Source: Caminibacter mediatlanticus TB-2 (GTDB lineage: Bacteria > Campylobacterota > Campylobacteria > Campylobacterales > Nautiliaceae). Taken from it: 64,000 bases of DNA. Below the pieces are notes generated by a model. The model did not search any database, was not told the DNA's origin, and saw only the letters and a list, made by a program, of their open reading frames with translations. Both the position numbers and the translations under genes were made by a program. Shown in pieces: positions 12,762 to 31,905 of this stretch (within the stretch, counting starts at the first letter, position 1; every line of letters begins with the position of its first letter). The stretch is taken from NCBI RefSeq assembly GCF_005843985.1, contig NZ_CP040463.1:1042001-1106000 (forward strand), given 5' to 3'.

Positions 12762-13541
12762 ATTACAAAAAAAACGAGAACTTCAATAAAAATTTTTTAT
12801 TCTGTAATAAAAGCATTGTTATTAAGAGAAATTCAAACAAGATTTGGATCTCAAAAATTAGGATACTTTTGGGCAGTTATTGAGCCAATGGCAATGATTA
12901 TTGTGTTTTCAATTATACATTCTCATTTAGGTTCTAAAACTCCTTATAATATGATAATTTTTTTAGCAATAAGTTTTGTTACTTATAATTTATATAAAGA
13001 TATTATTATTATGAATTTAAATAGTTTTCAAAGTAATAAAGCTTTATTTGTGTATAAACAAGTAAAACCATTTGATACTCTCATTAGTAGAACTTTAATT
13101 GAAATAAATATACAAATATTCGTTACCATTATATTATTAATTATAGCTTATTATTTAAATATTGAAATAAAAGTTAAAAATTTATTATATGTTTTACTTT
13201 CTATTATTTGGCTAATTATTTTTTCTTTTTCATTATCGTTATTATTTGCAGTCTTGTCATACTTTTTTGAAAATTTTGCTAAAATTATCAAATTAATTTT
13301 TTTACCAATGTTTTTTATTTCAGGGTTATTTTTTACTGCAAAAGATTTACCTGATTCAATAAGAAATATTTTATTATATAATCCAGTGTTACAATTTGAA
13401 GAAATGATTCATGGATTCTTTTTTTATTCTTTAGATGATAGATATGTAAATTATTTATATTTATTGTTTTGGACAATAATACCATTATTTGTAGGATTAT
13501 GGTTATATAAAAAAAGTGAAAAAAAGATAATTATGTCATGA
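12762..13541 (+). CDS. kpsM: Capsular polysaccharide ABC exporter, permease KpsM
   Basis: KpsM is the membrane part of the ABC exporter that moves capsule across the inner membrane (ABC-2 type, about six helices). ALLLREIQTRFGSQKLGYFWAV is the conserved N-terminal region, and FFISGLFFTAKDLP matches the later conserved part. Family members have residues before ALLLREI, and here the frame is open back to an AGGAGG at 12752-12757, but no ATG, GTG or TTG follows it. The first plausible codon is ATT at 12762 (4 bases after the site); the first standard start is TTG at 12816, which lacks a ribosome-binding site and cuts off the conserved lead. I annotate the ATT start with caution; a lost base in the A run at 12767-12774 is the alternative. 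Confidence 0.85.
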   Translation: MTKKTRTSIKIFYSVIKALLLREIQTRFGSQKLGYFWAVIEPMAMIIVFSIIHSHLGSKTPYNMIIFLAISFVTYNLYKDIIIMNLNSFQSNKALFVYKQVKPFDTLISRTLIEINIQIFVTIILLIIAYYLNIEIKVKNLLYVLLSIIWLIIFSFSLSLLFAVLSYFFENFAKIIKLIFLPMFFISGLFFTAKDLPDSIRNILLYNPVLQFEEMIHGFFFYSLDDRYVNYLYLLFWTIIPLFVGLWLYKKSEKKIIMS

Positions 13542-14647
13542 TTGAACTTAAAAATGTCACAAAATATTTTAAAACTAAAAATGAAAAAAGATATATATTA
13601 AAAAATGTATCACTTACAATCCCAGAGAAAGTAAATGTAGGGATATTAGGTATTAATGGTGCTGGAAAATCAACTCTTTTAAGAATGCTTGGAAAAATTG
13701 ATTTTCCTAATAGTGGAAAAATTATATCTAAAAATTCCTTTTCCTGGCCGTTAGGTCTATCAGGAGGTTTTCAAGGAAGTATGACAGGTAAACAAAATGT
13801 AAAATTTGTCGCAAGAATATATGGTAAAGATGAAAAAGAAATAAAAAAAATAGTTGATTTTGTAAAAAATTTTAGTGAACTTGGAGACTATTTTGATATG
13901 CCAATTAAAACATATAGTAGTGGAATGAAAAGTAGATTAAGTTTTGCTCTAAGTTTAGCTTTTGATTTTGATTATATTTTAATTGATGAAACATTATCTG
14001 TCGGTGATGCAAGATTTAAAGAAAAATCAAAAAAAGCCCTTATGGAAAAAATAAAAGAATCAAATGTATTAATGGTAAGTCATTCTATGGTTGATTTAAA
14101 AAAAATATGTGATGTTGGAATAGTTTTACATGAAGGAAAAATAGAATATTATGATAATATTATAGATGCAATTGATAGGTATAATTATATTAATTTATTT
14201 AATAATGTTAGTAATGAAGATATAATTAATATGTTTTTAAGAGAAAGAGCAAAATTTGATTTAATAGTTAAAGAAAGTTTTTTAATTGAAAATCAAGAAT
14301 GTTATTATTTATATTTTGTCTTGAAATATATTAATAAAATATTAGTTTTTAAATTTCATAATGAATTTTTATGTGCATATATAAATAATACTATAACTCA
14401 ATTATGTAATGATACAAAACTTGATTTAGTAATAGGTCATTTGATAGGTTTTTTTAAAAGATTTAATACTAAATTTATTTTTAATAATTTAATTGATGAG
14501 CATAAAAAAGATTGTTTGCTAAAATGTAAAAAAGTTGAGTTAATAAAAAAAATCAAAAATAATAATTTAGAAATTATTGAAAATGACAATTTAAAAATAA
14601 GAATTTTAAATAAACTTAATAAATTATCCATTATTAAAGGAAATTAA
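13538..14647 (+). CDS. kpsT: Capsular polysaccharide ABC exporter, ATPase KpsT with C-terminal extension
   Basis: KpsT powers capsule export. Visible motifs are Walker A GINGAGKST (38-46), signature YSSGMKSR (126-133), Walker B YILIDE (146-151) and the switch SH at 181-182. The ATPase ends near residue 220, the usual KpsT length. About 145 further residues follow, rich in Ile, Asn, Lys and Cys, with no domain I recognise. Long C-terminal domains in Wzt-type ATPases bind the end of the glycan, but this one does not obviously look like the Wzt beta-sandwich. It overlaps kpsM by 4 bases and abuts kpsE. Confidence 0.92.
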   Translation: MIELKNVTKYFKTKNEKRYILKNVSLTIPEKVNVGILGINGAGKSTLLRMLGKIDFPNSGKIISKNSFSWPLGLSGGFQGSMTGKQNVKFVARIYGKDEKEIKKIVDFVKNFSELGDYFDMPIKTYSSGMKSRLSFALSLAFDFDYILIDETLSVGDARFKEKSKKALMEKIKESNVLMVSHSMVDLKKICDVGIVLHEGKIEYYDNIIDAIDRYNYINLFNNVSNEDIINMFLRERAKFDLIVKESFLIENQECYYLYFVLKYINKILVFKFHNEFLCAYINNTITQLCNDTKLDLVIGHLIGFFKRFNTKFIFNNLIDEHKKDCLLKCKKVELIKKIKNNNLEIIENDNLKIRILNKLNKLSIIKGN

Positions 14648-15723
14648 TGAAAAAAATAAACAAATTACAGTTCTTTTTTATTTTTATATTTATAATAATT
14701 TCTTTTTATATTATATTTATTAAAACTGAACTATATGAGTCTTATTCAAATATTGTAATTAAAAACTTAAATACAAAATCTGCATCTTATGAAGGTATAT
14801 CATTAATTTTACCATCTACTTCTTCCACACAAGATATATATATGATACAATCATATTTACAATCATTTGATGAATTAAGTAAATTAGATAAAAAGTTTAA
14901 ATTAAAAAAATATTATAGTAGTAAAAAAGTTGATTTCATAAATAGATTGTATAAATGGTCTAAAAAAGAAGATTTCTTAAAAAGATATTTAAAAGATTTA
15001 ATTTTTTATTATGATCAAACAACAGGAATTATTACAATTGGTTTTCTTCACTCTAATCCATTAGTTGCATATAAAATCACAAATCAATTGATAAAAGATG
15101 CTAATCAAAAATTAAACAATTATTATAAAATTCTAACAAAAAAACAACTTTCATATATAAAAAAAGAAGTAGAAATTAATAAAAAACTTTTAGAAGAATC
15201 TATTAAAAAATTAGAAAATTTTCAAAACTCTCATAATCTATTAGATCCAACACAAAATGCTCAATCTCAATTTGCTTTATTATCTCAATTACAGTCCCAA
15301 CTAATTAATAAAGAAGCTCAATTAAATGAACTATCACAATATATGAATTCTAAAAGTTTCGAAATTATAAGATTAAAAAATGAAATATTAAATTTAAAAA
15401 AAACAATCAAAAAAATAAAAAATAGTTTAGCTAATCCTAATAAAAAAGCGTTAAATATATTTATTTTTGAATTTGAAAGATTAAAAAATATGGTTGAATT
15501 TAATAAAGAATTATATAAGCAATCTTTAATTCAATATCAACAATTAAAATTAGACTTAAATAAAAATGTAAAAACATTATTAAAAATTACAAATCCATTT
15601 ATACCTGATGACTATAAATATCCACAAAAGTTTAAATCTATTATAACTTTAGCATTAATTTTATTCTTCTTATATGGAATAATTGTTTTAATTAATTCTA
15701 TTATTAAAGAACATATTGATTAA
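14647..15723 (+). CDS. kpsE: Capsule export inner-membrane/periplasmic protein KpsE
   Basis: KpsE is a polysaccharide co-polymerase-type protein linking the inner-membrane exporter to the outer-membrane channel. The 358 residues have one N-terminal membrane helix (about 9-25), a large periplasmic part with a long coiled coil (roughly 160-290, rich in Lys, Glu, Leu and Gln) and a C-terminal membrane helix (about 328-350). The segment ITNPFIPDDYKYPQK just before the last helix is the proline-rich signature of this family. The ATG overlaps the kpsT stop by one base. Confidence 0.85.
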   Translation: MKKINKLQFFFIFIFIIISFYIIFIKTELYESYSNIVIKNLNTKSASYEGISLILPSTSSTQDIYMIQSYLQSFDELSKLDKKFKLKKYYSSKKVDFINRLYKWSKKEDFLKRYLKDLIFYYDQTTGIITIGFLHSNPLVAYKITNQLIKDANQKLNNYYKILTKKQLSYIKKEVEINKKLLEESIKKLENFQNSHNLLDPTQNAQSQFALLSQLQSQLINKEAQLNELSQYMNSKSFEIIRLKNEILNLKKTIKKIKNSLANPNKKALNIFIFEFERLKNMVEFNKELYKQSLIQYQQLKLDLNKNVKTLLKITNPFIPDDYKYPQKFKSIITLALILFFLYGIIVLINSIIKEHID

Positions 15724-15736
15724 AGAAAGGATTATT

Positions 15737-17344
15737 ATGAGAAAAATATTCTTTATTTTACTTAGTGTTATTTATATTTTAGCAGTAGATATAACCATAA
15801 CTCAAACACCCAATAGCGAACAAAATTCATCTCTGCTAAAATTAACTGAAAAACCTTTTGGTTATAATTTATTTTTAGGAAAATTTTCTAAAATAAAACA
15901 ATTTATTTATAATCCTCATTATAGAATAAATATTGGAGATGAAATTGTTGTAATGTTTTGGGGAGCATTCGATGCAGAATATAAATTAAAAGTAGATAAT
16001 CAAGGAAATATTTTTATTCCAAAAGTAGGTGTTATTCATGTAATGGGCTTAGAAGCTGGAAAATTAAATATTGTAATTAAAAATGCAGTAAGAAAAGTTT
16101 TTAAAAATAATGTATTTGTTTATGCAAATGTATTAAATTATCAGCCAATTAATGTTTTTGTTACTGGAGCAGTTAATTCGCCAGGGCTTTATCAAGGATT
16201 AAGTACTGATAGTATTATCCAATTTATTGATAAAGCAAAAGGTATAAATTTAAATGATGGTAGTTTTAGAAAAATATATGTAAAAAGAAACAATAAAATT
16301 GTTGCAAAATATGATTTATATGATTTTTTAACAGGAGGAAATTTAAAACTATTTCAATTTAAAAACGGAGATATAATATTTGTTGACAATTTATCTTATT
16401 TTGTAAATGTCACTGGAGATGTAAAAAGACCTTATAGATTTGAATTATTAACTCCTACAATTACCTTGAATTTATTAAAAGTATATGCTCTACCTAAAAA
16501 AAGTGTAAGTCTTGTTATAGTAAATAGATTCAGTAAAGGAAAATTAATTACTAAAAGATTTTCAATAAATGATAATCCTATAATTTATAGTGGTGATAAT
16601 GTTGAGTTTATCTCAGACTTTAATACAAAAGAAATTAAAATATATATAGATGGTGAAATTAATGGTAAACATACTTTAATTGTAAGAAAAGGTACATCAT
16701 TAAAAGATGTATTAAATACTATTCATTATACTAAGGAAGCAAATATTCAAGCTATTCAATTATATAGAAAGAGTATTGCTAAGTTACAAAAACAATTAAT
16801 TGATGCAGAACTAAAAGATTTAGAAGCAAAAGTTTTAACAACAAGTTCTGTTACTACTGCAGGTGCAACAATCAAAAAAGAAGAAGCACAATTAATTCTT
16901 GATTTTATAAAAAGAGCAAAAAAAATACAACCAAAAGGAAAAGTTATTCTAAATAAAGAAACAAATTTATCTTCAATAATATTAGAAGATGGTGATACTA
17001 TATTTATTCCTAAAAAATCTTCAGTTGTTACAATTCAGGGAGAAGTTAAAATACCAGGTGCTCAAACATATGTAAAAAATTACAATATAGAAGATTACAT
17101 TAAATCAGTTGGAGGATTTACTAATAGAGCTGATAAATCTCACATATTAATAGTGAGACAAAGTGGAAAAGTTATTACATATAATTCAAATGTATTTTTC
17201 AAAAAAAATATTAAAATAAAACCAGGAGATTCTATTTTAGTACTTAGTAAACCTTCAAGTGAAAATTTACAAATTACAAAAGATATTACTCAAATCTTAT
17301 ATCAAATTGCAGTTAGTGCTGGTATAGTTTTAAGATTATTTTAA
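15737..17344 (+). CDS. kpsD: Capsule export outer-membrane protein KpsD
   Basis: KpsD belongs to the outer-membrane polysaccharide export family and forms the periplasmic/outer-membrane conduit for capsule. From the ATG at 15737 (AAAGG at 15726-15730) the protein has a signal peptide (MRKIFFILLSVIYILAV), a Poly_export region (YRINIGDEIVVMFWGAFDAEY, VDNQGNIFIPKVGVIHVMGL) and later SLBB-type repeats (FVTGAVNSPGLYQGLS, VNVTGDVKRPYRFELL, VTIQGEVKIPGAQTYV). A longer frame from TTG 15716 is open, but the signal peptide and ribosome-binding site favour the ATG. The C-terminus ends in a hydrophobic stretch. Confidence 0.9.
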   Translation: MRKIFFILLSVIYILAVDITITQTPNSEQNSSLLKLTEKPFGYNLFLGKFSKIKQFIYNPHYRINIGDEIVVMFWGAFDAEYKLKVDNQGNIFIPKVGVIHVMGLEAGKLNIVIKNAVRKVFKNNVFVYANVLNYQPINVFVTGAVNSPGLYQGLSTDSIIQFIDKAKGINLNDGSFRKIYVKRNNKIVAKYDLYDFLTGGNLKLFQFKNGDIIFVDNLSYFVNVTGDVKRPYRFELLTPTITLNLLKVYALPKKSVSLVIVNRFSKGKLITKRFSINDNPIIYSGDNVEFISDFNTKEIKIYIDGEINGKHTLIVRKGTSLKDVLNTIHYTKEANIQAIQLYRKSIAKLQKQLIDAELKDLEAKVLTTSSVTTAGATIKKEEAQLILDFIKRAKKIQPKGKVILNKETNLSSIILEDGDTIFIPKKSSVVTIQGEVKIPGAQTYVKNYNIEDYIKSVGGFTNRADKSHILIVRQSGKVITYNSNVFFKKNIKIKPGDSILVLSKPSSENLQITKDITQILYQIAVSAGIVLRLF

Positions 17345-17352
17345 AAGTTTGC

Positions 17353-19188
17353 ATGGAAAGAATAAATATTTTAAAGAAATTTTTTACTATTATTCAATAT
17401 GATTATCAAAATAACACAGATCCATTAAGAATTATTAAAAAATCATATGCAAGATTTAAAAGATTTGGATTAAAAGGTATGATAGAAAGATTAAATAAAG
17501 AATATAATATTATTGTAAAAACTAATATTTTTTATAAATATAACATACCCCACCAAACAGATAAAGAGAGAGAAGAGATAGAGAGGTTTGAGAAGAAGCC
17601 ATTAATATCAATAATAATGCCAGTATATAATGTAGAAGAAAGGTGGCTAAAATTAGCCATAGAATCAGTAGAGAGACAATGGTATAAGAACTGGGAGTTG
17701 TGTATCGTAGATGATGCATCAACAAGAGAAGAAACAAAGAAATATTTAAAAAGTTTAAATAATACAAAAATAAAAATAAAGTTTCTTGAAAAGAATCAAG
17801 GGATATCAGGGGCTTCTAATGAGGCATTAAAATTAGCAAAAGGGGAATATATAGCTTTGATGGATAATGATGATGAGTTAACTCCTGATGCATTATATGA
17901 AGTAGTAAAAGCAATAAATGAACAAGAAGCAGAGTTTATATATAGCGATGAAGATAAAATAGATATAAATGGAAATTATGTAGAACCACATTTTAAACCA
18001 GATTTTGCTCCAGATATGTTTTTATCACAAAACTATTTAAGTCATTTAGGTGTTATAAAAAAGGAATTAATAGATAGAGTAGGAGGATTTGAAAAAGGAT
18101 TAGAAGGTAGTCAAGATTATGATTTATATTTAAAAGTTTTAGAACATACTAATAAGATTTATCATATTCCAAAAGTATTATATCATTGGAGAAAAATTCC
18201 AGGTTCAACAGCAGAAGGTTTTAGTAATAAAGATTATGCGCAAGAGGCAGGTAGAAAAGCGCTTGAAAATGCAATGAAAAGAAGAAGTATTGAAGCTATT
18301 GTAAAAAATGGATTAAAAGCAGGAACTTATAAGATAGATTATAAAATAAAAGGGAATCCTTTAATAAGTATAATTATACCTTTTAAAGATAAACCTGAGT
18401 TATTAAGAACATGTGTAGAGTCTATATTAAATAAATCTACTTATAATAATTTTGAGATTATAGGAATAAGTAATAACTCAGAAGAAAAAGAAACTTTTGA
18501 TGAAATGAATAGACTTGAAAATCTTGATAGAAGAGTGAAATTTTATGAGTATAATATTCCTTTTAATTATTCGAAAATAAATAATTATGCCGTAAATAAT
18601 TATGCAAATGGTGAACATATTGTGTTAATGAATAATGATATAGAGATAATTACTCCAAATTGGATTGAAGAGATGTTAATGTTTTCACAAAGAGATGATG
18701 TAGGATGTGTTGGTGCTAAGCTGTATTATCCTGATAATACTATTCAACATGCGGGAGTGATTTTAGGACTTGGAGGAGTAGCAGGGCATTCTCATAAATA
18801 TTATAAAAGAGAAGATTGTGGGTATTTTCATAGAGCATGTATAGTACAAAATTTATCAGCGGTAACAGCTGCATTAATGATGGTTAAAAAAAGAATCTAT
18901 GAAGAGGTAAGAGGTTTAGATGAAGAGAATTTAAAAGTAGCATTTAATGATGTAGATTTTTGTTTAAGAGTCAGAGAAAAAGGATATTTAAATGTATTTA
19001 ATCCTTGGGTTGAAGCATATCATTATGAATCTAAAAGTAGAGGATTAGAAGATACTCCTGAAAAAATAGAAAGATTTCAAAAAGAAATAAATTATATGAA
19101 ACAAAAATATGGTAAAATTCTTCTTAAAGACCCTTATTATAATCCAAATCTAACTTTAGATAAAGAAGATTTTAGTTTAAATTTATAA
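17353..19188 (+). CDS. Two-domain family 2 glycosyltransferase (rhamnosyltransferase-like), copy 1
   Basis: This enzyme should add sugars to the growing capsule repeat on the cytoplasmic side. Of 611 residues, the first 65 are a short unique lead. Then come two GT-A domains: PLISIIMPVYNVEERWLKLA with MDNDDELTP (metal-binding DxD-like) and PLISIIIPFKDKPELLRTC with MNNDIEIITPNWIEEML. The second domain, with GCVGAKLYYPD, IQHAGVILGLGG and FNDVDFCLRV, resembles GT2 rhamnosyltransferases, which fits the rfbACDB genes downstream. From residue 66 onward the DNA is almost identical to the next gene. Confidence 0.9.
   Translation: MERINILKKFFTIIQYDYQNNTDPLRIIKKSYARFKRFGLKGMIERLNKEYNIIVKTNIFYKYNIPHQTDKEREEIERFEKKPLISIIMPVYNVEERWLKLAIESVERQWYKNWELCIVDDASTREETKKYLKSLNNTKIKIKFLEKNQGISGASNEALKLAKGEYIALMDNDDELTPDALYEVVKAINEQEAEFIYSDEDKIDINGNYVEPHFKPDFAPDMFLSQNYLSHLGVIKKELIDRVGGFEKGLEGSQDYDLYLKVLEHTNKIYHIPKVLYHWRKIPGSTAEGFSNKDYAQEAGRKALENAMKRRSIEAIVKNGLKAGTYKIDYKIKGNPLISIIIPFKDKPELLRTCVESILNKSTYNNFEIIGISNNSEEKETFDEMNRLENLDRRVKFYEYNIPFNYSKINNYAVNNYANGEHIVLMNNDIEIITPNWIEEMLMFSQRDDVGCVGAKLYYPDNTIQHAGVILGLGGVAGHSHKYYKREDCGYFHRACIVQNLSAVTAALMMVKKRIYEEVRGLDEENLKVAFNDVDFCLRVREKGYLNVFNPWVEAYHYESKSRGLEDTPEKIERFQKEINYMKQKYGKILLKDPYYNPNLTLDKEDFSLNL
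17548..19183 (+). repeat. 1,636-bp direct repeat, copy 1 (glycosyltransferase module)
   Basis: This block matches 20007-21642 base for base at an offset of 2,459, apart from a handful of substitutions noticed on reading: F to C, R to K and G to S changes plus at least one silent change near the end. It starts at CCCCACCAAACAG and ends within the last codons of the gene. Flanking DNA on both sides is unrelated, so the event was a recent duplication or gene conversion confined to the catalytic part. Confidence 0.97.
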
Positions 19189-19205
19189 TATTACAAGGAA
19201 AAAGG

Positions 19206-21665
19206 ATGAAAAAGGAATTTTATTACGAAAATTTCGTAAAAATAAATGAATTAAAAAACAAATATAAGCAAGGCATAAAAAATAAATTTTTCAAAAAAAA
19301 ATATAAAAATTTTATTAAAAAATTAAATAATATTCCAGAAAACTTTTGGATTTTTTTTAATGAAAAAGAGTACATTAAAGCTAACAAAGACATTTTAGAA
19401 GATATAAAAAAAGGAAGTTTGTTAAATGGAATAGAACATTTCATATGGTTTGGATATGATGAAATAAAAAAAGGTAAAAGAAGAATAGGTAGTATTTTTC
19501 CTTTTTACAATGAAGAAATTTATCTTAATTATAATAGTGATTTGAAAGAAGAAAAAAATAAAAATCCTAATTTTAATGCTTTTATTCACTTTTTAGAATA
19601 TGGCTACTTAGAATATTTAGAACAAAAAAGATTAGCTATAGGGTTTTTTCATTTTAATTGGGATGAATCAACTCAAAAAAAATTTAAAGAATTTTTTAAT
19701 GAAGAAGAATATATTAATGCTAATCCAGATATTAAAGAAGCAATTCAAAAAGGTTTATTAAAAAATGGATGGAGTCATTTTGTAGAGTTTGGAATATTTG
19801 AATTACAAAAAGGTGAAAGAAAATTAAATACTTTTTTACCATTATTTAATGAAATAGATTATTTTTTATGGTTTGAAGATGTAAGAAATGCTTTATTCAA
19901 TCAAACAATAAATTCTCCATATGAACATTTTTTATTTTTTGGATATAAAGAAATTTTAGATAAAAAAAGAACTATACCAGGTTTTTCTACTTATTATTAT
20001 TTCTGTCCCCACCAAACAGATAAAGAGAGAGAAGAGATAGAGAGGTTTGAGAAGAAGCCATTAATATCAATAATAATGCCAGTATATAATGTAGAAGAAA
20101 GGTGGCTAAAATTAGCCATAGAATCAGTAGAGAGACAATGGTATAAGAACTGGGAGTTGTGTATCGTAGATGATGCATCAACAAGAGAAGAAACAAAGAA
20201 ATATTTAAAAAGTTTAAATAATACAAAAATAAAAATAAAGTGTCTTGAAAAGAATCAAGGGATATCAGGGGCTTCTAATGAGGCATTAAAATTAGCAAAA
20301 GGGGAATATATAGCTTTGATGGATAATGATGATGAGTTAACTCCTGATGCATTATATGAAGTAGTAAAAGCAATAAATGAACAAGAAGCAGAGTTTATAT
20401 ATAGCGATGAAGATAAAATAGATATAAATGGAAATTATGTAGAACCACATTTTAAACCAGATTTTGCTCCAGATATGTTTTTATCACAAAACTATTTAAG
20501 TCATTTAGGTGTTATAAAAAAGGAATTAATAGATAAAGTAGGAGGATTTGAAAAAGGATTAGAAGGTAGTCAAGATTATGATTTATATTTAAAAGTTTTA
20601 GAACATACTAATAAGATTTATCATATTCCAAAAGTATTATATCATTGGAGAAAAATTCCAGGTTCAACAGCAGAAGGTTTTAGTAATAAAGATTATGCGC
20701 AAGAGGCAGGTAGAAAAGCGCTTGAAAATGCAATGAAAAGAAGAAGTATTGAAGCTATTGTAAAAAATGGATTAAAAGCAGGAACTTATAAGATAGATTA
20801 TAAAATAAAAGGGAATCCTTTAATAAGTATAATTATACCTTTTAAAGATAAACCTGAGTTATTAAGAACATGTGTAGAGTCTATATTAAATAAATCTACT
20901 TATAATAATTTTGAGATTATAGGAATAAGTAATAACTCAGAAGAAAAAGAAACTTTTGATGAAATGAATAGACTTGAAAATCTTGATAGAAGAGTGAAAT
21001 TTTATGAGTATAATATTCCTTTTAATTATTCGAAAATAAATAATTATGCCGTAAATAATTATGCAAATGGTGAACATATTGTGTTAATGAATAATGATAT
21101 AGAGATAATTACTCCAAATTGGATTGAAGAGATGTTAATGTTTTCACAAAGAGATGATGTAGGATGTGTTGGTGCTAAGCTGTATTATCCTGATAATACT
21201 ATTCAACATGCGGGAGTGATTTTAGGACTTGGAGGAGTAGCAGGGCATTCTCATAAATATTATAAAAGAGAAGATTGTGGGTATTTTCATAGAGCATGTA
21301 TAGTACAAAATTTATCAGCGGTAACAGCTGCATTAATGATGGTTAAAAAAAGAATCTATGAAGAGGTAAGAGGTTTAGATGAAGAGAATTTAAAAGTAGC
21401 ATTTAATGATGTAGATTTTTGTTTAAGAGTCAGAGAAAAAGGATATTTAAATGTATTTAATCCTTGGGTTGAAGCATATCATTATGAATCTAAAAGTAGA
21501 GGATTAGAAGATACTCCTGAAAAAATAGAAAGATTTCAAAAAGAAATAAATTATATGAAACAAAAATATAGTAAAATTCTGCTTAAAGACCCTTATTATA
21601 ATCCAAATCTAACTTTAGATAAAGAAGATTTTAGTTTAAATTCAGAATATAAAGGATTTTTATGA
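19206..21665 (+). CDS. Two-domain family 2 glycosyltransferase with N-terminal repeat region, copy 2
   Basis: This protein of 819 residues shares residues 268 onward with the preceding gene almost exactly (both GT-A domains, DNDDE and NNDIE motifs), so both probably use the same donor, likely dTDP-rhamnose. It differs in a unique N-terminal region of about 265 residues containing several degenerate repeats of 45-60 residues of the type FFNEEEYINANPDI, then GLLKNGWSHFVEFG, then a GER or GKR ending. This Y-x-x-x-N-x-D-I ... H-F-x-x-F-G module recurs in bacterial glycosyltransferases and may bind the acceptor or mediate assembly. The C-terminus differs from copy 1 (SEYKGFL). Confidence 0.9.
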   Translation: MKKEFYYENFVKINELKNKYKQGIKNKFFKKKYKNFIKKLNNIPENFWIFFNEKEYIKANKDILEDIKKGSLLNGIEHFIWFGYDEIKKGKRRIGSIFPFYNEEIYLNYNSDLKEEKNKNPNFNAFIHFLEYGYLEYLEQKRLAIGFFHFNWDESTQKKFKEFFNEEEYINANPDIKEAIQKGLLKNGWSHFVEFGIFELQKGERKLNTFLPLFNEIDYFLWFEDVRNALFNQTINSPYEHFLFFGYKEILDKKRTIPGFSTYYYFCPHQTDKEREEIERFEKKPLISIIMPVYNVEERWLKLAIESVERQWYKNWELCIVDDASTREETKKYLKSLNNTKIKIKCLEKNQGISGASNEALKLAKGEYIALMDNDDELTPDALYEVVKAINEQEAEFIYSDEDKIDINGNYVEPHFKPDFAPDMFLSQNYLSHLGVIKKELIDKVGGFEKGLEGSQDYDLYLKVLEHTNKIYHIPKVLYHWRKIPGSTAEGFSNKDYAQEAGRKALENAMKRRSIEAIVKNGLKAGTYKIDYKIKGNPLISIIIPFKDKPELLRTCVESILNKSTYNNFEIIGISNNSEEKETFDEMNRLENLDRRVKFYEYNIPFNYSKINNYAVNNYANGEHIVLMNNDIEIITPNWIEEMLMFSQRDDVGCVGAKLYYPDNTIQHAGVILGLGGVAGHSHKYYKREDCGYFHRACIVQNLSAVTAALMMVKKRIYEEVRGLDEENLKVAFNDVDFCLRVREKGYLNVFNPWVEAYHYESKSRGLEDTPEKIERFQKEINYMKQKYSKILLKDPYYNPNLTLDKEDFSLNSEYKGFL
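20007..21642 (+). repeat. 1,636-bp direct repeat, copy 2 (glycosyltransferase module)
   Basis: Second copy of the block at 17548-19183. The two copies lie head to tail in adjacent genes and are separated by 823 bases of unique DNA that encodes the end of copy 1 and the N-terminal repeat region of copy 2. Homologous recombination between them would delete that segment and fuse the two genes in frame. Confidence 0.97.
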
Positions 21666-23038
21666 AAAATGAAAAAATAACAGAAGGTCAGATAATTGGA
21701 ACTGCTACTATTATAAATAATTCAATAATTCAAGGATGGTTTTTTTCAAAAAAGGAAATTAATATACCTTTGAAATTAGAAATTTATATTAATAATAATA
21801 AAATTACTAATATTGTTGCTAATAAATTTAGACCAGATATTGTAGAAAAAAAAATTCATCCTACAGGTATGATAGGATTTAACTATAAATATAATATAAA
21901 TGAAAATGATGATATTTTTTTATATTTCCCAGAATATGATTACAAATTTTATTTACAAAAAAGAAAAAGTAATTCTTTTCAAAATATTAATATTAATAAA
22001 AACAAAAAAAAGTTATGTATTGTGCATATAGGGATGCATAAAACAGGGTCTTCTTCAATTCAATATAATTTAAATAAATATAAATTTAATAATTTTTCAT
22101 ATTTTAATTTAGGAGTAGATAATCATAGTATACCAATATTTAGTCTTTTCACTAAACATCCAGAAAAATATCATATACACTTGAGAGCAGGGAGGAATAA
22201 AAAAGAGATAGAAGAATATAATAATGAAATTAAAAAAATGTTTATTAATCATTTACAAAAAAATAAAGATAAAGAAGTCTTCATTATTTCGGGAGAAGAT
22301 ATTAGTGCATTAAATAATGAAGAAGTTACTGCTTTTAGAAACTTCTTATATAAATATTTTGAAAAAATTAAAATAATTGGGTATATTCGTTCTCCGCATA
22401 GTTTTATTTCTAGTAATTTTCAAGAAAGTGTAAAAGCAGGTTTATATAATTTTAATATTGATATTCATTATCCTCATTATAGGAATAGAATTGAGAAATT
22501 TGATATGATATTTGGAAGAGAAAATGTTGATTTAATATATTTTAATCAAAAAAATTTAAAAAACAAAGATGTTGTAATTGATTTTTTGTATAGACTACAA
22601 TTATATAATGATGATTATAAAAATATAAAATTTGAAAAAATTAATACTTCTCTTTCTTTAGAAACAACCTCAGTGCTTTACTTTTTTAATAAATTTTTAA
22701 AAAATAAAAATTTTACTATTGTAGAAAAAGAAAAAATTCGTATGAATTTACTTTCTAAAATAAAGAATTTAGGAAATAAAAAATTTCTATTAGATATGGA
22801 ACTAATAAAAAAAGTTATACAAAAATATAAGGATGATGTTGATTGGATTGAAAAAAGAATGAATGTTAATCTATCAAAACAAGAAAATTTAAATTATTCC
22901 ATAGGAATAAAAAGTGAAAATGATATGTTATTTATTGCTAAAAAAACTTTAGATATTTTAAATAAAATTGATTTTAATGATGCTAATTTATTTTCACAAT
23001 TTCAAAAATTTATTATAGATGAATATAAAAAATTATAA
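21662..23038 (+). CDS. PAPS-dependent carbohydrate sulfotransferase
   Basis: This likely transfers sulfate from PAPS to the capsule. Residues 122-132 (HIGMHKTGSSS) form the 5'-phosphosulfate-binding loop typical of sulfotransferases, and IGYIRSPHSFISSNFQE (about 239-255, with R243 and the following serines) matches the 3'-phosphate-binding site. An N-terminal region of about 100 residues with SIIQGWFF, NKFRPDI and GMIGF resembles the small accessory domain often attached to bacterial glycosyltransferases. The gene overlaps the upstream glycosyltransferase by 4 bases and is followed directly by PAPS-making genes, which strongly supports the role. The acceptor sugar and position are unknown. 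Confidence 0.82.
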   Translation: MKNEKITEGQIIGTATIINNSIIQGWFFSKKEINIPLKLEIYINNNKITNIVANKFRPDIVEKKIHPTGMIGFNYKYNINENDDIFLYFPEYDYKFYLQKRKSNSFQNININKNKKKLCIVHIGMHKTGSSSIQYNLNKYKFNNFSYFNLGVDNHSIPIFSLFTKHPEKYHIHLRAGRNKKEIEEYNNEIKKMFINHLQKNKDKEVFIISGEDISALNNEEVTAFRNFLYKYFEKIKIIGYIRSPHSFISSNFQESVKAGLYNFNIDIHYPHYRNRIEKFDMIFGRENVDLIYFNQKNLKNKDVVIDFLYRLQLYNDDYKNIKFEKINTSLSLETTSVLYFFNKFLKNKNFTIVEKEKIRMNLLSKIKNLGNKKFLLDMELIKKVIQKYKDDVDWIEKRMNVNLSKQENLNYSIGIKSENDMLFIAKKTLDILNKIDFNDANLFSQFQKFIIDEYKKL

Positions 23039-23047
23039 AGGTATCAA

Positions 23048-23947
23048 ATGAAATTAACTCATTTAAAACAGCTTGAAGCAGAATCAATATACATTTTAAG
23101 AGAAGTAGCCGCAAATTTTAAAAATCCAGTGATGATGTATTCTATCGGAAAAGATAGTAGTGTCATGTTACATTTAGCTATGAAAGCTTTTTATCCTGCT
23201 AAACCACCTTTTCCATTATTACATGTCGACACCTTATGGAAATTTAAAGAAATGATTGAATTTAGAGACAAGAGAGTAAAAGAACTTGGAGTAGAATTAA
23301 TTACATATACAAATCCTGATGGAATTGAAATGAATATAAATCCCTTTGTGCATGGTAGTAAAATTCATACGGATATAATGAAAACACAAGCTTTGAAAAA
23401 AGCATTAAATAAATATGGATTTGATGCAATAATTGGTGGTGCAAGACGAGATGAAGAAAAATCACGCGCAAAAGAAAGAATATTTAGTTTCAGAGATAAA
23501 AATCATAGATGGAATCCAAAAGCACAAAGACCAGAGCTTTGGAATTTATATAATACTCATATTAATAAGGGTGAAAGTGTTAGAGTTTTTCCTCTATCAA
23601 ACTGGACAGAACTTGATATTTGGCAATATATATATCTTGAAAAAATTCCTATAGTTCCTTTATATTTTGCAAAAGAAAGAGATGTAGTAGAATATGAAGG
23701 AGCAAAAATTATGGTTGATGATGATAGAATGCCAGTGGAATTAAGAAAAAAAGCAAAAAAAGAAATGGTAAGATTTAGAACCCTTGGATGTTATCCTCTA
23801 ACAGGAGCAATAAATTCTAATGCAGATACACTCGAAAAAATAATTGAAGAAATGTTATTATCAAAAAATAGTGAAAGACAAGGAAGATTAATTGATAAAG
23901 ATGAAGAAGGAAGTATGGAAAAGAAAAAAATAGAAGGGTATTTCTAA
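23048..23947 (+). CDS. cysD: Sulfate adenylyltransferase small subunit
   Basis: CysD forms adenosine 5'-phosphosulfate (APS) from ATP and sulfate, driven by the GTPase CysN. The 299 residues show the PP-loop [52 protein letters not shown] and LGCYPLTGA, all standard for CysD. Its neighbours are the sulfotransferase and cysN, and no cysH or cysIJ is nearby. The context therefore points to PAPS supply for capsule sulfation rather than sulfur assimilation. Confidence 0.97.
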
Positions 23948-23959
23948 AAAAGGAGAATA

Positions 23960-25402
23960 ATGAAATCAATCATAAATTATTTAAAAGAGCATGAAAATAA
24001 AGAGATGTTAAGATTTATAACATGTGGAAGTGTAGATGATGGTAAATCAACACTTATAGGAAGGCTTTTATATGATAGTAAAAAGATTTACGAAGATCAA
24101 TTAGCGCAAGTTAAAAATGAAACAAAAAAATATGGAACTACAAATGAAGAAATTGATTTTGCATTATTAGTAGATGGTTTACAAAGTGAAAGAGAACAGG
24201 GGATTACAATTGATGTTGCATATAGATTTTTTAGTACAGACAAAAGAAAATATATAATTGCTGATACTCCTGGACACGAACAATATACAAGGAATATGGC
24301 AACTGGAGCAAGTACAGCTGATTTAGCTGTAATATTAATTGATGCAAGAAAAGGAGTATTAACTCAAACTATAAGACATACTTTTATAGTAACATTAATG
24401 GGAATTCAAAATATTCTTATAGCGATAAATAAAATGGATTTAGTAAACTATGATGAAGCTATTTTTAATAAAATAATAAATGAATATAATAACATGTTTG
24501 AAAAACTTAGATTATCTTTACCGTATAAAAACATTGATTTTAATATAGATTTTATACCTATTAGTGCTTTAAAAGGTGATAATGTAACTAATCATTCTCA
24601 AAACATGAGGTGGTATAAAGGTAAAAGTTTATTAAGCTATCTTGATACAATAAATATACTTAATAATAATAATTTTAACGCATTTAGATATCCAGTCCAA
24701 TATGTTAATAGACCTAATTTAGATTTTAGAGGATATTGTGGTACTATTACTAATGGAAAAATACAAGTAGGTGATGAAATAAAAATATACCCTTCACATA
24801 AAACTGCTACTATTAAAGAAATTATTTTACCCGTTAATAATATAGATAATAAAAAAGAAAATCCATATATTAAAAAAGCAGAAAAAAATATGGCAGTTAC
24901 TTTAACTTTAAATAATGAGCTTGATATAAGTAGAGGTGATTTAATAATAAAAAAAGATGAAATAGAACCAAAGTTTAATGATTCTTTTGAAGCAATGCTA
25001 ATTTGGTTTGATGATCAATCAATGCAAAAAAACAGAGAATATATTTTAAAAATATATTCTAAAGAAACGACAGCAAGAGTAGATAAAATTTTGTATAAAA
25101 AAAATATAAATACATTAGAAAAACAAGAAGCAGATACATTAAATTTAAATGATATTGCAAGAGTAAAAATTGATTTGAGTGAAAAAATTGCTTTTGATTT
25201 CTATGAAGAAAATAAAGAAACAGGTGCTTTTATATTAATAGATAAACTTACTAATAATACGGTAGCTGCTGGAATGATAGTAGGAGATGCTACAAAATCC
25301 CAAATCAAAAAAACATATACTGATTCTGAAATTGCATTAAATGAATATATAAGAAAGTTTTATCCAGAATGGGGATGTAAACCAATCGAGGATATAAAGT
25401 AA
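23960..25402 (+). CDS. cysN: Sulfate adenylyltransferase large subunit (GTPase)
   Basis: CysN is the GTPase partner of CysD. The 480 residues carry GSVDDGKSTLIGRLLYDSK (G1), QGITIDVAYRFF (G2), DTPGHEQYTRNMATGAS (G3) and NKMD (G4), followed by EF-Tu-like beta-barrel domains. There is no C-terminal APS kinase domain (as in NodQ/CysNC); the kinase is supplied by two separate genes downstream. The stop overlaps the next start by one base. AAGGAG precedes the ATG. Confidence 0.97.
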   Translation: MKSIINYLKEHENKEMLRFITCGSVDDGKSTLIGRLLYDSKKIYEDQLAQVKNETKKYGTTNEEIDFALLVDGLQSEREQGITIDVAYRFFSTDKRKYIIADTPGHEQYTRNMATGASTADLAVILIDARKGVLTQTIRHTFIVTLMGIQNILIAINKMDLVNYDEAIFNKIINEYNNMFEKLRLSLPYKNIDFNIDFIPISALKGDNVTNHSQNMRWYKGKSLLSYLDTINILNNNNFNAFRYPVQYVNRPNLDFRGYCGTITNGKIQVGDEIKIYPSHKTATIKEIILPVNNIDNKKENPYIKKAEKNMAVTLTLNNELDISRGDLIIKKDEIEPKFNDSFEAMLIWFDDQSMQKNREYILKIYSKETTARVDKILYKKNINTLEKQEADTLNLNDIARVKIDLSEKIAFDFYEENKETGAFILIDKLTNNTVAAGMIVGDATKSQIKKTYTDSEIALNEYIRKFYPEWGCKPIEDIK

Positions 25403-26127
25403 TGTATAAAGAAACAAATATACGCTCTATAGCAAAAGGTATAACATGGAGAATTGTTGCCACTGGTACAACAATGTCAATAGTTTATATTTTTTTTGGA
25501 AATATTGAGTTAGCAGTAGCAACTGGAATTCTTGAAACTATTGCAAAAGTAGGATTATATTGGGCACATGAAAAGGTATGGCAGAAAATTAGATGGGGTA
25601 GAAAAAAGATAGAACCTTTTAATTTAATGTTTACAGGGCTTCCTCTTAGTGGGAAAACAACAATAGCTGATTTAGTATATGATAAATTACAAAAACTTGA
25701 TATTCCAATTGAGAGAATTGATAGTAAAGATATTAGAGAATTAATCCCTAATATTGGATATAGTAAAGAAGAGAGACTAAAACATATAAAAAGAATAGCT
25801 CATCTTATTCAAACTTTGCAAAAAAACTCAATATCAACTATAACAAGTTTCGTATTTCCTTATAAAGAAAGCAGAAAAATTGTAAGAGAAATGGTAAAAA
25901 ATAACATAGTTGTATATGTAAAAGCAAGTATTGAAGAGTGTAAAAAAAGGGATTATAAAGGAGTATATGAAAAAGCCCTAAAAGGAGAAATTGAGAACTT
26001 TACAGGAATTAGTGATGTATATGAAGAACCACAACATGCTGAAATAATAATCGATACTGAAAAAATAAAACCTGAAGAAGCAGCTGATATTATTTATAAG
26101 TATATCAAAAAAAATTACATAAAATAG
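25402..26127 (+). CDS. Membrane-anchored APS kinase-like protein (DUF2061 + CysC fusion)
   Basis: A two-part protein of 241 residues. Residues 1-66 match the DUF2061 membrane domain (SIAKGITWRIVATGTT, ILETIAKVGLYWAHEKVW), with about two hydrophobic helices. Residues 74-241 are an APS kinase-like P-loop domain: GLPLSGKTT (79-87) is the Walker A, with Pro-Leu where CysC has Ser-Gly/Ala. The CysC substrate motif LDGDN is replaced by RIDSKDIREL, while HIKRIAHL and a late KALKGEIENFTGISDVYE segment are kept. It may tether PAPS synthesis to the membrane next to the sulfotransferase, or may have a changed substrate. A canonical CysC follows 12 bases downstream. Confidence 0.8.
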   Translation: MYKETNIRSIAKGITWRIVATGTTMSIVYIFFGNIELAVATGILETIAKVGLYWAHEKVWQKIRWGRKKIEPFNLMFTGLPLSGKTTIADLVYDKLQKLDIPIERIDSKDIRELIPNIGYSKEERLKHIKRIAHLIQTLQKNSISTITSFVFPYKESRKIVREMVKNNIVVYVKASIEECKKRDYKGVYEKALKGEIENFTGISDVYEEPQHAEIIIDTEKIKPEEAADIIYKYIKKNYIK

Positions 26128-26139
26128 AGGAATTAACAA

Positions 26140-26745
26140 ATGAAAAATATTATAATTCATCCTCATAAAGTAAAAAGAAATGATAGAGAAAAAATTAAGA
26201 ATCAAAAAGGTTGTGTGATTTGGCTTACAGGTCTTAGTGGTAGTGGTAAAAGTACTATTGCAAATGAATTAGAATATGAGTTAAATAAGATGAAATATCA
26301 TACCTATCTGCTTGATGGAGACAATATTAGAAGTGGATTAAATAGTGATTTAAGTTTTAATGAAAATGATAGAAAAGAAAATATTAGAAGAATAAGTGAA
26401 GTAGCAAAACTTTTTGTAGACTCAGGAATTATTACAATTACTGCATTTATTTCTCCTTTTATTAAAGATAGAGAAAAAGCTAAAAAAATTATAGGAGTGG
26501 AAAATTTTATAGAAGTTTTTATTGATACTCCTCTTGAAGAATGCATAAAAAGAGATCCTAAGGGGTTATATAAAAAAGCATTAGATGGAAAGATTAAAAA
26601 TTTTACAGGTATTGATCAAAAATATGAAAAACCAATTAATCCAAATATACATATTGATACAATAAAAGAAGATTTAAATATAAGTATTAATAAAATTATA
26701 AATTATTTAGACAAAAAAGGATACATAAATGTTAAGCAATATTAA
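26140..26745 (+). CDS. cysC: Adenylylsulfate kinase
   Basis: CysC phosphorylates APS at the 3' position to give PAPS, the sulfate donor. The 201 residues have a canonical Walker A GLSGSGKST (31-39), LLDGDNIRSGLNSDLSF with the substrate-binding motif, ENIRRISEVAKLF, ITAFISPF and KALDGKIKNFTGIDQ. Unlike the preceding fusion, all key motifs are intact, so this is probably the working kinase. It overlaps cysQ by 17 bases. Confidence 0.97.
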   Translation: MKNIIIHPHKVKRNDREKIKNQKGCVIWLTGLSGSGKSTIANELEYELNKMKYHTYLLDGDNIRSGLNSDLSFNENDRKENIRRISEVAKLFVDSGIITITAFISPFIKDREKAKKIIGVENFIEVFIDTPLEECIKRDPKGLYKKALDGKIKNFTGIDQKYEKPINPNIHIDTIKEDLNISINKIINYLDKKGYINVKQY

Positions 26746-27481
26746 TATAAACTATATACTAGATATTGCAAAAAAGGCTGGAAAAGAAGTTTTAAAAATT
26801 TACAATAAAGACTTTGAAGTTGAATATAAAAGTGATAAATCCCCTCTAACAAAAGCTGATAAAATTTCTCATCAAATAATTGTCGAAGGATTAAAAGAAT
26901 ATAATTTACCTATTTTATCTGAAGAAGGAAAAAATATTCCATATGAAGAAAGAAAAAATTGGGAATATTTTTGGATGATAGACCCTCTTGATGGGACTAA
27001 AGAATTTATAAAAAGAAATGGAGAATTTACTATAAATATAGCTTTAATTCATAAAGACACTCCTGTATTTGGAGTAGTATATGCACCAGCCATTGATATC
27101 TTATATTTTAATGATAAAAATAATGCCTATAAGATAGAAAATAATAAAAAATTTACTTTACCATTACATAAAAATAAAGATAAACTTGTTATAATTGCAA
27201 GCAAATCTCATATGAATACAGAAACAAAAAAATTTATAGATACTATAAAAACAGATAAAAAGAAAGTTTTTATTTCAAAAGGCAGTAGTTTAAAACTATG
27301 TTTAGTTGCAGAAGGAATAGCAGATATTTATCCAAGACTTGCTCCCACTATGGAATGGGATACAGCAGCAGCTGATGCTATTGTAAGAAAATGTAACAAA
27401 AAAACTATTGATTTGCAAACCGATAAATTGTTAAAATATAATAAAAAAAATTTACTTAATAATTATTTCATAGTTTATTAG
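26729..27481 (+). CDS. cysQ: 3'(2'),5'-bisphosphate nucleotidase
   Basis: CysQ hydrolyses PAP (adenosine 3',5'-bisphosphate), the inhibitory by-product of sulfotransferases, to AMP. The 250 residues belong to the inositol monophosphatase fold: SPLTKADKISHQIIVE, LSEEGK, WMIDPLDGTKEFIKRNGEFT (the CysQ-type DPLDGTKEF metal site) and MEWDTAAADAIV. AAAAAAGG at 26713-26720 supports the ATG that overlaps the end of cysC. In this locus it completes the sulfation cycle. Confidence 0.93.
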   Translation: MLSNININYILDIAKKAGKEVLKIYNKDFEVEYKSDKSPLTKADKISHQIIVEGLKEYNLPILSEEGKNIPYEERKNWEYFWMIDPLDGTKEFIKRNGEFTINIALIHKDTPVFGVVYAPAIDILYFNDKNNAYKIENNKKFTLPLHKNKDKLVIIASKSHMNTETKKFIDTIKTDKKKVFISKGSSLKLCLVAEGIADIYPRLAPTMEWDTAAADAIVRKCNKKTIDLQTDKLLKYNKKNLLNNYFIVY

Positions 27482-27500
27482 TTTATAAAAAGGAGAATTG

Positions 27501-28382
27501 ATGAAAGGCATAATATTAGCAGGGGGAAGTGGTACGAGGTTATACCCAATAACAAGAGGGATAAGCAAACAACTACTACCAATATATGATAAGCCAATGA
27601 TATATTATCCAATGTCAGTTTTAATGCTTAGTGGAATAAAAGATATTTTAATAATAAGTAATCCAGAGTATATAGATAATTATAAAGCAATATTTAAAGA
27701 TGGAAGTCAACTTGGTATGAATATTGAATATGCTATTCAAAAAGAGCCAAGAGGTCTTGCAGAAGCATTTATAATAGGGGAAGAATTCATAGGTAATGAT
27801 AATGTATGTTTAGTATTAGGGGATAATATATTTTATGGACATGGATTAACTAATTTATTAAAAGAATCAGTAAATATTGTAGAAAATGAAGATAAAGCAG
27901 TTGTGTTTGGATATTATGTAAATAATCCTAAGGCATATGGAGTAGTAGAGTTTGATGAGAATTTTAAAGCAATAAGTATAGAAGAAAAACCAGAAAATCC
28001 AAAAAGCAATTATGCAGTAACAGGACTTTATTTTTATCCAAATGATGTAGTAAAAAAAGCAAAAGAAGTAAAGCCAAGCAATAGAGGAGAACTTGAAATA
28101 ACATCAATTAATGAGATGTATTTAAATGAAGATAGATTAAATGTAAAATTAATGGGAAGAGGGTATGCTTGGCTTGATACAGGTACTCATGATAATTTAA
28201 TAGAAGCAGGAATGTTTGTAAAAGTTTTAGAGCAAAGAAAAGGTTTTAAAATAGCTTGTATTGAAGAGATAGCTTATGAGAATGGATGGATAGATAAAGA
28301 CCAAATTAAAAAACTTGCTAAACCTCTTAAAAAAACAGAATATGGGGAATACCTTTTAAAAATTATCAATGAAGAATGTTAA
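27501..28382 (+). CDS. rfbA: Glucose-1-phosphate thymidylyltransferase
   Basis: RfbA (RmlA) makes dTDP-glucose, the first step to dTDP-L-rhamnose. The protein begins [20 protein letters not shown] (nucleotidyl loop GGSGTRL) and has [49 protein letters not shown] and [15 protein letters not shown], all diagnostic. The ATG at 27501 follows AAGGAG at 27490-27495; a TTG codon directly before it is in frame but too close to the ribosome-binding site. The stop codon lies inside a heptanucleotide repeat (28376-28396). Confidence 0.97.
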
Positions 28383-28396
28383 ATTTTAAATTGAAG
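28376..28396 (+). repeat. Heptamer repeat spanning the rfbA stop
   Basis: Three consecutive 7-base units ATGTTAA, ATTTTAA, ATTGAAG. The first unit contains the rfbA stop codon and the third overlaps the rfbC ribosome-binding site. Units of the same kind recur at 28967, 29052, 29640 (inverted sense) and 30761. Confidence 0.5.
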
Positions 28397-28403
28397 GGCT
28401 AAA

Positions 28404-28967
28404 ATGAAATTTATACCAACTAAAATACCAGAAGTAGTAATAATAGAACCAAAAGTATTTGGAGATGATAGAGGCTATTTTATGGAGACTTTTAGGCAGG
28501 ATTTATTTGAAAAAAATATTAGAAAAATAGATTTTATCCAAGATAATGAATCAAAAAGTAAAAGAGGAGTTTTAAGAGGACTTCATTATCAATTGCCTCC
28601 ATTTGCACAAAGTAAGCTTGTAAGAGTAATAAAAGGAAAAGTATTAGATGTAGCAGTAGATATAAGAAAAAATTCACCAACATTTAAACAATATGTAGCA
28701 GTTGAACTTAGCGAAGAGAATAAAAGACAACTTTTTATTCCAAGAGGATTTGCCCATGGATTTTTAGTATTGAGTGATGAGGCGATATTTACTTATAAAG
28801 TAGATAATTATTATTCTCCTGAGCATGATAGAAGTATAAGATTTGATGATTTAGAAATTGGTATAAATTGGAATTTTCCAAAAGAAGAGTTGATTATTTC
28901 AGAGAAAGATAAAAATGCACCATTTTTAAAAGATGCAGAGATATTTGAGTCAATGGAAAATTATTAA
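28404..28967 (+). CDS. rfbC: dTDP-4-dehydrorhamnose 3,5-epimerase
   Basis: RfbC (RmlC) epimerises dTDP-4-keto-6-deoxyglucose at C3 and C5. The 187 residues show the cupin core: DDRGYFMETFRQDLF, DNESKSKRGVLRGLHYQLPP (active-site His), VDIRKNSPTF, FIPRGFAHGFLVLSD and FTYKVDNYYSPEHDRSIRFDD. It stands in the usual rhamnose cluster, here in the order A, C, D, B. The ribosome-binding site GAAGGG overlaps the end of the heptamer repeat after rfbA. Confidence 0.97.
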   Translation: MKFIPTKIPEVVIIEPKVFGDDRGYFMETFRQDLFEKNIRKIDFIQDNESKSKRGVLRGLHYQLPPFAQSKLVRVIKGKVLDVAVDIRKNSPTFKQYVAVELSEENKRQLFIPRGFAHGFLVLSDEAIFTYKVDNYYSPEHDRSIRFDDLEIGINWNFPKEELIISEKDKNAPFLKDAEIFESMENY

Positions 28968-28980
28968 TGTTAAATTTAAG
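28967..28980 (+). repeat. Heptamer repeat at the rfbC/rfbD junction
   Basis: Two units ATGTTAA and ATTTAAG directly after the rfbC stop and ahead of the rfbD ribosome-binding site. They match the units at the rfbA/rfbC junction. Confidence 0.4.
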
Positions 28981-28988
28981 TAGGGAAA

Positions 28989-30972: not shown

Positions 30973-31905
30973 GTGAAAAAAATTGAAATATTACTATTTG
31001 TTTATAATGGAGAAAGATTTTTAGAAAAACAAATAAATTCTATACTAACACAAACATATAAAAATTTTACATTACATTTAATAGATGATTGTTCAAACGA
31101 TAATAGTTTTGAAATAATAAATAAGTATAAAAATTTAACAAATGTGAAAATCTATCGGAATGATAAAAATATAGGCATTGTAAAAAATGTAGAAAAATAT
31201 TTAAATTTAATAAATGGAGAATTTTTTGCATTGAGTGATCAAGATGATATTTGGTTACCTAATAAATTAGAAAAACAAATAAAATATATAAACAATAAAA
31301 AGCCTATGTTAGTTCATAGTGATTTAGTAATGATAAATGAATATGAAAAAATTTTATATTCTTCTTATTTTAAATTTAGAAATTATAATTTACCTAATAA
31401 AAAATCTTTAAATACAATAATTTCTCAAAATGGTGTAATGGGTAATACTATTTTATTTAACCAAAAACTAAAAGAATTAATTTTACCTTTTCCTAAAGAT
31501 TTAATTGTACATGATTATTGGATTGCATTAATAAATGAAATTTATGGAGAAAGAATTACTTTAAATGAAAAACTTGTAATGTATAGAATACATAATAATA
31601 ATTTATCTAATAATATTTCTTCTTTAAGTAAAAGAAACAAAATTAAATTAAATAATATACAATTGCCATATTACAACATTAATAGAGAAAAAGTTTTAGA
31701 ATTTTTATTAAATAATTATTATATTAAAGAACAAGATAAAATTATAATTAAAAAATTCATTGAATATTTAGAGTTTAAAAAAAACAAATTATATATTATT
31801 TTTAACTTATTAAAATACAACTTTTTAAAAAAATCATTATTTTATAGAATAAAAATTATCATCAAAATATTATTAAAGAAAAAAACAAATGAATATAAAA
31901 AATAA
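30973..31905 (+). CDS. Family 2 glycosyltransferase (rhamnosyltransferase-like)
   Basis: A single-domain GT-A enzyme of 310 residues: LFVYNGERFLEKQINSILTQ, HLIDDCSNDNSFEI, ALSDQDDIWLPNKLEKQI (DQDD metal motif) and FPKDLIVHDYWIALI. This pattern resembles alpha-rhamnosyltransferases such as RgpB-type enzymes, which agrees with the dTDP-rhamnose genes directly upstream. The start is GTG at 30973. The end overlaps kpsC by 17 bases. The C-terminal 70 residues are very Lys/Ile/Leu-rich and may attach to the membrane surface. Confidence 0.88.
   Translation: MKKIEILLFVYNGERFLEKQINSILTQTYKNFTLHLIDDCSNDNSFEIINKYKNLTNVKIYRNDKNIGIVKNVEKYLNLINGEFFALSDQDDIWLPNKLEKQIKYINNKKPMLVHSDLVMINEYEKILYSSYFKFRNYNLPNKKSLNTIISQNGVMGNTILFNQKLKELILPFPKDLIVHDYWIALINEIYGERITLNEKLVMYRIHNNNLSNNISSLSKRNKIKLNNIQLPYYNINREKVLEFLLNNYYIKEQDKIIIKKFIEYLEFKKNKLYIIFNLLKYNFLKKSLFYRIKIIIKILLKKKTNEYKK

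Follow-up and report, generated by a model that had tools for sequence, protein, structure and literature searches.

The window analysed here (the whole 64-kb stretch of DNA) comes from a hot-vent bacterium of the family Nautiliaceae and carries a capsule gene cluster in which two adjacent genes, referred to here as gene A and gene B, each encode a glycosyltransferase (GT) with two GT2 domains. The genes and features of the cluster are as follows.

12816-17344, plus strand: kpsM (12816), kpsT (13538), kpsE (14647) and a kpsD-type gene (15716), directly upstream of gene A.
17353-19188, plus strand: gene A, a chimeric dual-domain GT2 of 611 aa; open reading frame with Pfam Glycos_transf_2 twice, the first gene past kpsD.
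17353-17547, plus strand: N-terminal 65 aa of gene A, with the A-type tag at about residues 4-58 (tag profiles).
17548-19183, plus strand: catalytic module of gene A, two GT-A domains, B-type (identity, trees, AU test).
19206-21665, plus strand: gene B, a dual-domain GT2 of 819 aa with a repeat N-terminus (open reading frame, Pfam).
19206-20006, plus strand: N-terminus of gene B, 267 aa, with repeats of ~45 aa (sequence; homologous N-termini elsewhere).
20007-21642, plus strand: B-type catalytic module of gene B with two GT-A domains, probable donor of the copy in gene A (identity, tree, AlphaFold2).
21662-23038, plus strand: probable sulfotransferase, a small N-terminal domain followed by the P-loop-like motif GMHKTGSSS.
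23048-30966, plus strand: CysD, CysN, two CysC, an inositol-monophosphatase/CysQ-like protein, RmlA, RmlC, RmlD and an RmlB-like protein (Pfam).
30973: single-domain GT2, an open reading frame past the Rml genes and before the KpsC-type gene.
31889-35072, plus strand: KpsC-type (31889) and KpsS (33894) Kdo-linker enzymes (Pfam Capsule_synth; NCBIfam KpsS).

Genes for KpsM, T, E, D, C and S are all present, and on this gene content the locus is an ABC-transporter-dependent (group 2-like) capsule locus. KpsM and KpsS were recognized by NCBIfam models, both under the equivalog cut-offs (KpsS with 417 bits, under the 600-bit cut-off), the KpsC-type protein by Pfam Capsule_synth, the kpsD-type exporter by its SLBB and Poly_export domains and KpsE by homology and synteny only. 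The genes between 23048 and 30966 serve sulfate activation and dTDP-rhamnose synthesis, and it can reasonably be inferred from gene content that the capsule is sulfated and contains rhamnose. The probable sulfotransferase had no Pfam or NCBIfam match; a homologue (45%) lies downstream of a fused GT gene in genome G210, described below. Its start is a small domain of ~65 aa (..KFRPDIVEKKIHPTGMIGFNY..), relatives of which are found on other capsule-locus proteins of genome G168 (related loci: window 21662-23038; L098:9880-10596; L131:4057-5361). The two CysC-type APS kinase genes adjoin each other (25402-26745), the first being fused to a DUF2061 membrane domain, and the same pair seems to be present in genome G013 (L097:2106-3377).

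The initial annotation had described near-identical 1,636-bp modules in the two genes that comprise both GT-A domains but are joined to unrelated N-termini and end in different last codons, and this description held in every respect. Positions 17548-19183 and 20007-21642 are direct repeats of 1,636 bp with a spacing of 2,459 bp, which align without gaps and differ by only 4 substitutions (99.76% DNA and 99.4% protein identity). These are F in gene A versus C in gene B at 17783, R versus K at 18077, G versus S at 19111 and a synonymous difference at 19122. The reading frame is kept in both copies, which are identical over uninterrupted stretches of up to 1,033 bp. Upstream of the modules, no similarity between genes A and B was detectable; at the 3′ side, the sequences diverge within the last codons (TTA TAA in gene A, TCA GAA ... 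TGA in gene B), gene A stopping with TAA and gene B continuing for a few codons beyond the module end. A third copy is absent from the complete, single-contig genome of 1,685,887 bp, in which the other matches are ≤67 bp long, and no comparable duplication was found elsewhere in the 64-kb window. Chance as the origin of this identity is excluded. Since there is only 1 silent difference per ~309 synonymous sites, the copying, or its last round, must have been recent in sequence terms. A gene-conversion tract read from the spacing of the four differences was rejected as not significant, a 1,033-bp run being not unusual for 4 randomly placed differences (calculated p ~0.09).

Pfam PF00535 matched in two stretches, and the AlphaFold2 model of gene B placed two GT-A domains inside the shared segment, both with high confidence, while the repeat N-terminus was modelled poorly. 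Acidic DXD-like motifs (MDNDD in domain 1, NND in domain 2) are conserved in nearly all B-type sequences. The best Foldseek/PDB and sequence matches of the gene B module were the chondroitin polymerase K4CP/KfoC (2z86/2z87) and the Pasteurella heparosan synthase 2 (8vh7/8vh8), with 14-17% identity. Like the proteins of the window, these two are encoded in capsule loci and have two GT-A GT2 domains per polypeptide; they produce alternating polymers. However, the whole-chain superposition was poor (TM ~0.22-0.35, rmsd 17-23 Å), and thus the domain arrangement either differs from that of K4CP and heparosan synthase 2 or was mispredicted. Furthermore, the N-termini of genes A and B are absent from both enzymes. 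The N-terminus of gene B consists of ~45-aa repeats (FNEEEYINANPDIKEAIQKG..SHFVEFG..ELQKGER and variants), for which we found no Pfam family and no convincing PDB match and obtained a helical model of low confidence. A repeat of this kind (consensus F-N-E-E-x-Y-L-x-x-N-P-D-V-K-x-A ... H-F-x-x-x-G-x-x-E-I-x-x-G-K-R), mostly in capsule loci and again matching no Pfam family, was seen attached to a number of GTs and, in one instance, making up a separate protein of 277 aa (window 19206-20006; L098:18787-19620; L097:9078-10667; L131:1-3379; L102:2803-6054).

The module was searched for in 399 genomes of the order and in 84,980 species genomes, and the loci found were then read. The kps loci of Campylobacterota contain two types of dual-GT2 genes, termed A-type and B-type (A′ and B′ in other genomes). 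A-type genes (n = 10 loci) share an N-terminal tag of ~58 aa (RIFKKSYARYKKHGFKGMYxRLEKEY) and, wherever kpsE or kpsD could be seen in the locus, lie beside the former or directly after the latter. B-type genes have several N-termini; the ~45-aa repeats of gene B recur in four loci (L080, L098, L131 and L132), and B-type modules are also found under several others, which indicates that N-terminal exchange is not rare in this family. Gene order in G168 (L098) is kpsMTED-A′-B′, identical to that of the window; Poseidonibacter (L080) and G314 (L132) have kpsD-A′...B′ with intervening genes, and G013 (L097), which belongs to the window's own family, has kpsMTED-A′. In G210, A′ and B′ are fused end to end in one open reading frame of 1,341 aa with four GT-A domains (L131:5349-9374, minus strand). 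Within each of the four genomes holding both types, the A′ and B′ modules are only 50-52% identical, compared to 99.4% for the pair in the window. The two types are separate, ancient lineages.

The N-terminus of gene A, which had been regarded as unrelated or new, is in fact the A-type tag: a profile built from the 10 A-type N-termini matched gene A with 63.7 bits (E = 1.8e-20), compared to 3.2 bits for the best non-A-type sequence and 3.8 bits for the runner-up in all frames of the window. With an independent 6-row profile from which gene A had been left out, gene A was still the sole match in the genome (E = 9.8e-16). The catalytic module of gene A belongs elsewhere. In the tree, the A′ modules formed one clade (100/100) and both modules of the window fell within the B clade (100/100); trees of each GT domain alone also placed both of them with the B-type. 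Forcing the gene A module into the A′ clade cost 98 lnL units (AU test, p-AU = 1.3e-5). At the 11 diagnostic columns, defined as fixed in A′ and ≥80% uniform in B, gene A carries the residue of B in 10 columns and that of A′ in no column; one of the 10 lies inside the DXD-like motif of domain 1, which reads LDHDD in A′ but MDNDD in B and in the window. A-type tag and B-type module together make gene A a natural chimera, as shown by profiles and trees of its sequence. The shared module sets in ~7 residues beyond the tag and its 3′ end lies ≤5 bp from the stop codon; almost nothing but the catalytic part thus appears to have been exchanged. For the last ~65 residues of the two copies, neither an A- nor a B-type origin is clear, and one A-like gap lies in them. 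These residues apart, a mosaic with a partly A-type module was rejected since each domain alone is B-type. By catalytic clade, genes A and B both belong to the B-type lineage, and gene A was consequently filed as a carrier of the A-type tag only and not as an A-type enzyme.

The best explanation of this structure, to which we assign a probability of about 0.72, is that the catalytic module of an A-type gene was overwritten by a copy of that of gene B. The ancestor of gene A would have been an A-type dual-GT2 gene beside kpsE/kpsD, adjoining or near the B-type gene B. Its whole catalytic module would then have been replaced, probably in situ, by non-reciprocal recombination or gene conversion, with gene B as the presumed donor, and the 4 substitutions would have been acquired afterwards, unless the copies were kept alike through further conversion. 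The cell would have been left with two proteins that have the same pair of catalytic domains, one behind a short tag and one behind a repeat N-terminus. The A-type sugar linkage(s) are predicted to have been lost, leaving B-type chemistry at both positions and thus, as a further prediction, a changed capsule structure. The direction of transfer rests on the lineage argument, because the state of gene A is common in B-type relatives at two of the three amino acid sites: at 17783 and 18077, it is at least as common as that of gene B (clearly so for F, mixed for R/K). Counting against a replacement in situ, the DNA of A′ and B′ in other genomes has an identity of no more than ~65-70%, which makes it a poor substrate for ordinary homologous recombination. 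A pre-replacement A gene of the window's lineage was not seen. Moreover, the A/B pair is absent from the same-genus genomes in the collection, and the chimera may therefore have arrived ready-made by horizontal transfer.

The initial annotation had offered two readings, a duplication in which the copy was fused to a new N-terminus and ongoing gene conversion. This choice can be narrowed: the new part of gene A is its B-type module and not its N-terminus, and replacement of the module by that of gene B fits better than a duplication with fusion to an unrelated N-terminus. In another possible history, gene A would be an old chimera whose module was kept identical to that of gene B by repeated conversion (concerted evolution). 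The single silent difference would fit such a history, as would the long direct repeats only 2.5 kb apart, which are a good substrate for conversion, and the paralogues of the window are more alike within the genome than versus orthologues, a pattern seen in this one genome. However, no chimera of this kind was found in the ~400 sampled genomes of the order, and the 1,033-bp stretch free of differences is not unusual. We also compared 13 other same-locus module pairs from Campylobacterota, Clostridia and Treponema. Where longer stretches aligned, their DNA was ~64-71% identical, and the longest exact match in any of the 13 was ≤36 bp, with no homogenisation; in the Clostridium pairs of L043 and L047, the tree showed that orthology was kept across species. 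Homogenisation as a habit of the dual-GT2 family was rejected on these grounds, although the 13 pairs are too diverged to convert easily, and the window pair is the sole homogenised pair among those compared. We consider long-standing repeated conversion possible but less likely than the replacement described above.

A tandem duplication of the gene B module, fused to a different N-terminus with no A-type gene there before, would likewise produce near-identical copies in tandem, and the B-type modules found under several N-termini in other genomes demonstrate that swapping occurs in this family. It would have to explain why the N-terminus acquired is specifically the A-type GT tag and why gene A lies at the A-type position, directly after kpsD and before gene B as in G168. 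That this tag was gained at exactly this position with no A-type gene involved is the less parsimonious assumption, and we regard this course of events as improbable.

A crossover between the direct repeats would, as the initial annotation had anticipated, leave an intact in-frame gene, predicted to encode 617 aa with the tag of gene A and the tail of gene B; its further suggestion that the capsule could thereby vary reversibly is not supported. The crossover would delete 2,459 bp including the whole 267-aa N-terminus of gene B, so that the same cell lineage could not switch back, and re-expansion would require unequal exchange between sister chromosomes or DNA uptake. No long poly-G/C tract typical of phase variation was found between 12701 and 24000, and there were no strong inverted repeats around the gene pair, nor any other reversible element near it. 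A switch between the A and B copies is therefore unlikely, and a dedicated device that toggles between one gene and two very much so. Least probable of all is that one real module was assembled twice: 1.6-kb repeats may mislead short-read assembly, but an error is unlikely in a single-contig genome in which all four junctions are unique sequence, the 3′ ends differ, four differences separate the copies and both reading frames are intact.

If module replacement is accepted, the tag is the part of gene A that stayed in place. The finding also points to an unnamed N-terminal element common to capsule GTs and the export protein KpsE. In genomes G323 and G255, the ~58-aa tag is found on the cytoplasmic N-terminus of KpsE, before the first membrane segment (L156:15833-17098 and L157:15443-16708, minus strand). 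These tags were matched with E values of 9.9e-11 and 4.3e-9 by a profile excluding them (5.9e-27 and 8.3e-26 by one including them), and the remainder of the tagged protein is KpsE, 38% identical to that of the window (E = 3e-86). No dual-GT2 gene was seen in the fetched loci of these two genomes. Conversely, the tag was absent from the seven KpsE proteins examined, including that of the window, in loci with the tag on a GT; six of the seven start near the membrane segment, and the one in L143 has a different short extension. The idea that the tag heads dual-GT2 proteins in general was rejected, since among the 2,299 open reading frames of the fetched loci it had no match in Firmicutes, Treponema or B-type N-termini. 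Its complementary occurrence on either a GT or KpsE, always within a kps locus, suggests an address or docking element for the Kps export complex. There is a precedent for docking of a GT at this complex, as interactions of the E. coli K1 polymerase NeuS with both KpsC and KpsE have been reported (PMC2408645). Going further, the tag might be a portable docking element and polymers might evolve by swaps of catalytic modules under fixed addresses; we put this forward as a tentative possibility.

Being conserved beside the export genes, the A-type GTs could conceivably act at the linker-to-polymer position, like the transition transferases of group 2 capsules; these, CpsA and CpsC, are members of the PF04464 and LicD families (PMC11666461), whereas the A-type GTs are GT2. 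The closest precedent for the A/B pair is found in C. jejuni HS:2, where Cj1434 and Cj1438, encoded in one capsule locus, have GT2 domains with ~87% amino acid identity, catalyze the same reaction and differ in the attached domains; the authors saw no reason for two enzymes, and HS19.11/HS19.08 of HS:19 is a weaker case with 67% (PMC11800379). Both pairs combine a near-identical GT2 catalytic part with different attached domains in one kps locus, but Cj1434 and Cj1438 share one N-terminal GT2 and differ in their C-termini, whereas genes A and B share a C-terminal GT2 pair and differ in their N-termini. Furthermore, genes A and B are adjacent, are 99.4% (protein) and 99.76% (DNA) identical in the shared part, and their phylogeny points to a replacement across lineages. 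It is established that capsule loci of C. jejuni evolve through duplications, fusions and deletions (Karlyshev et al. 2005, cited in PMC2527321); this process is of the same class and takes place in the same kind of locus, in a member of the same phylum. With these precedents, the process proposed for genes A and B is of a known kind. To our knowledge, no case has been described in C. jejuni in which a neighbouring paralogue from a different lineage overwrote a whole catalytic module, and a limited literature search found no description of a dual-GT2 module replaced in full across lineages or of a tag common to a GT and KpsE, and nothing useful on capsule genes of Nautiliaceae. Innovation in capsule polymers is usually inferred from gain or loss of whole genes. 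Here, a module replacement would have been captured soon after it happened, the unaltered N-terminus proving what gene A used to be, and the pair would document in nature how gene clusters of this kind can alter their sugar coat. The vent lineage concerned is not known for disease, and nothing medical is claimed. It also offers a testable answer to the question raised in C. jejuni of why there should be two enzymes for one reaction in one locus: if the tag is indeed a docking element, a locus would have duplicate GTs, including Cj1434 and Cj1438, since one and the same reaction has to take place at two addresses.
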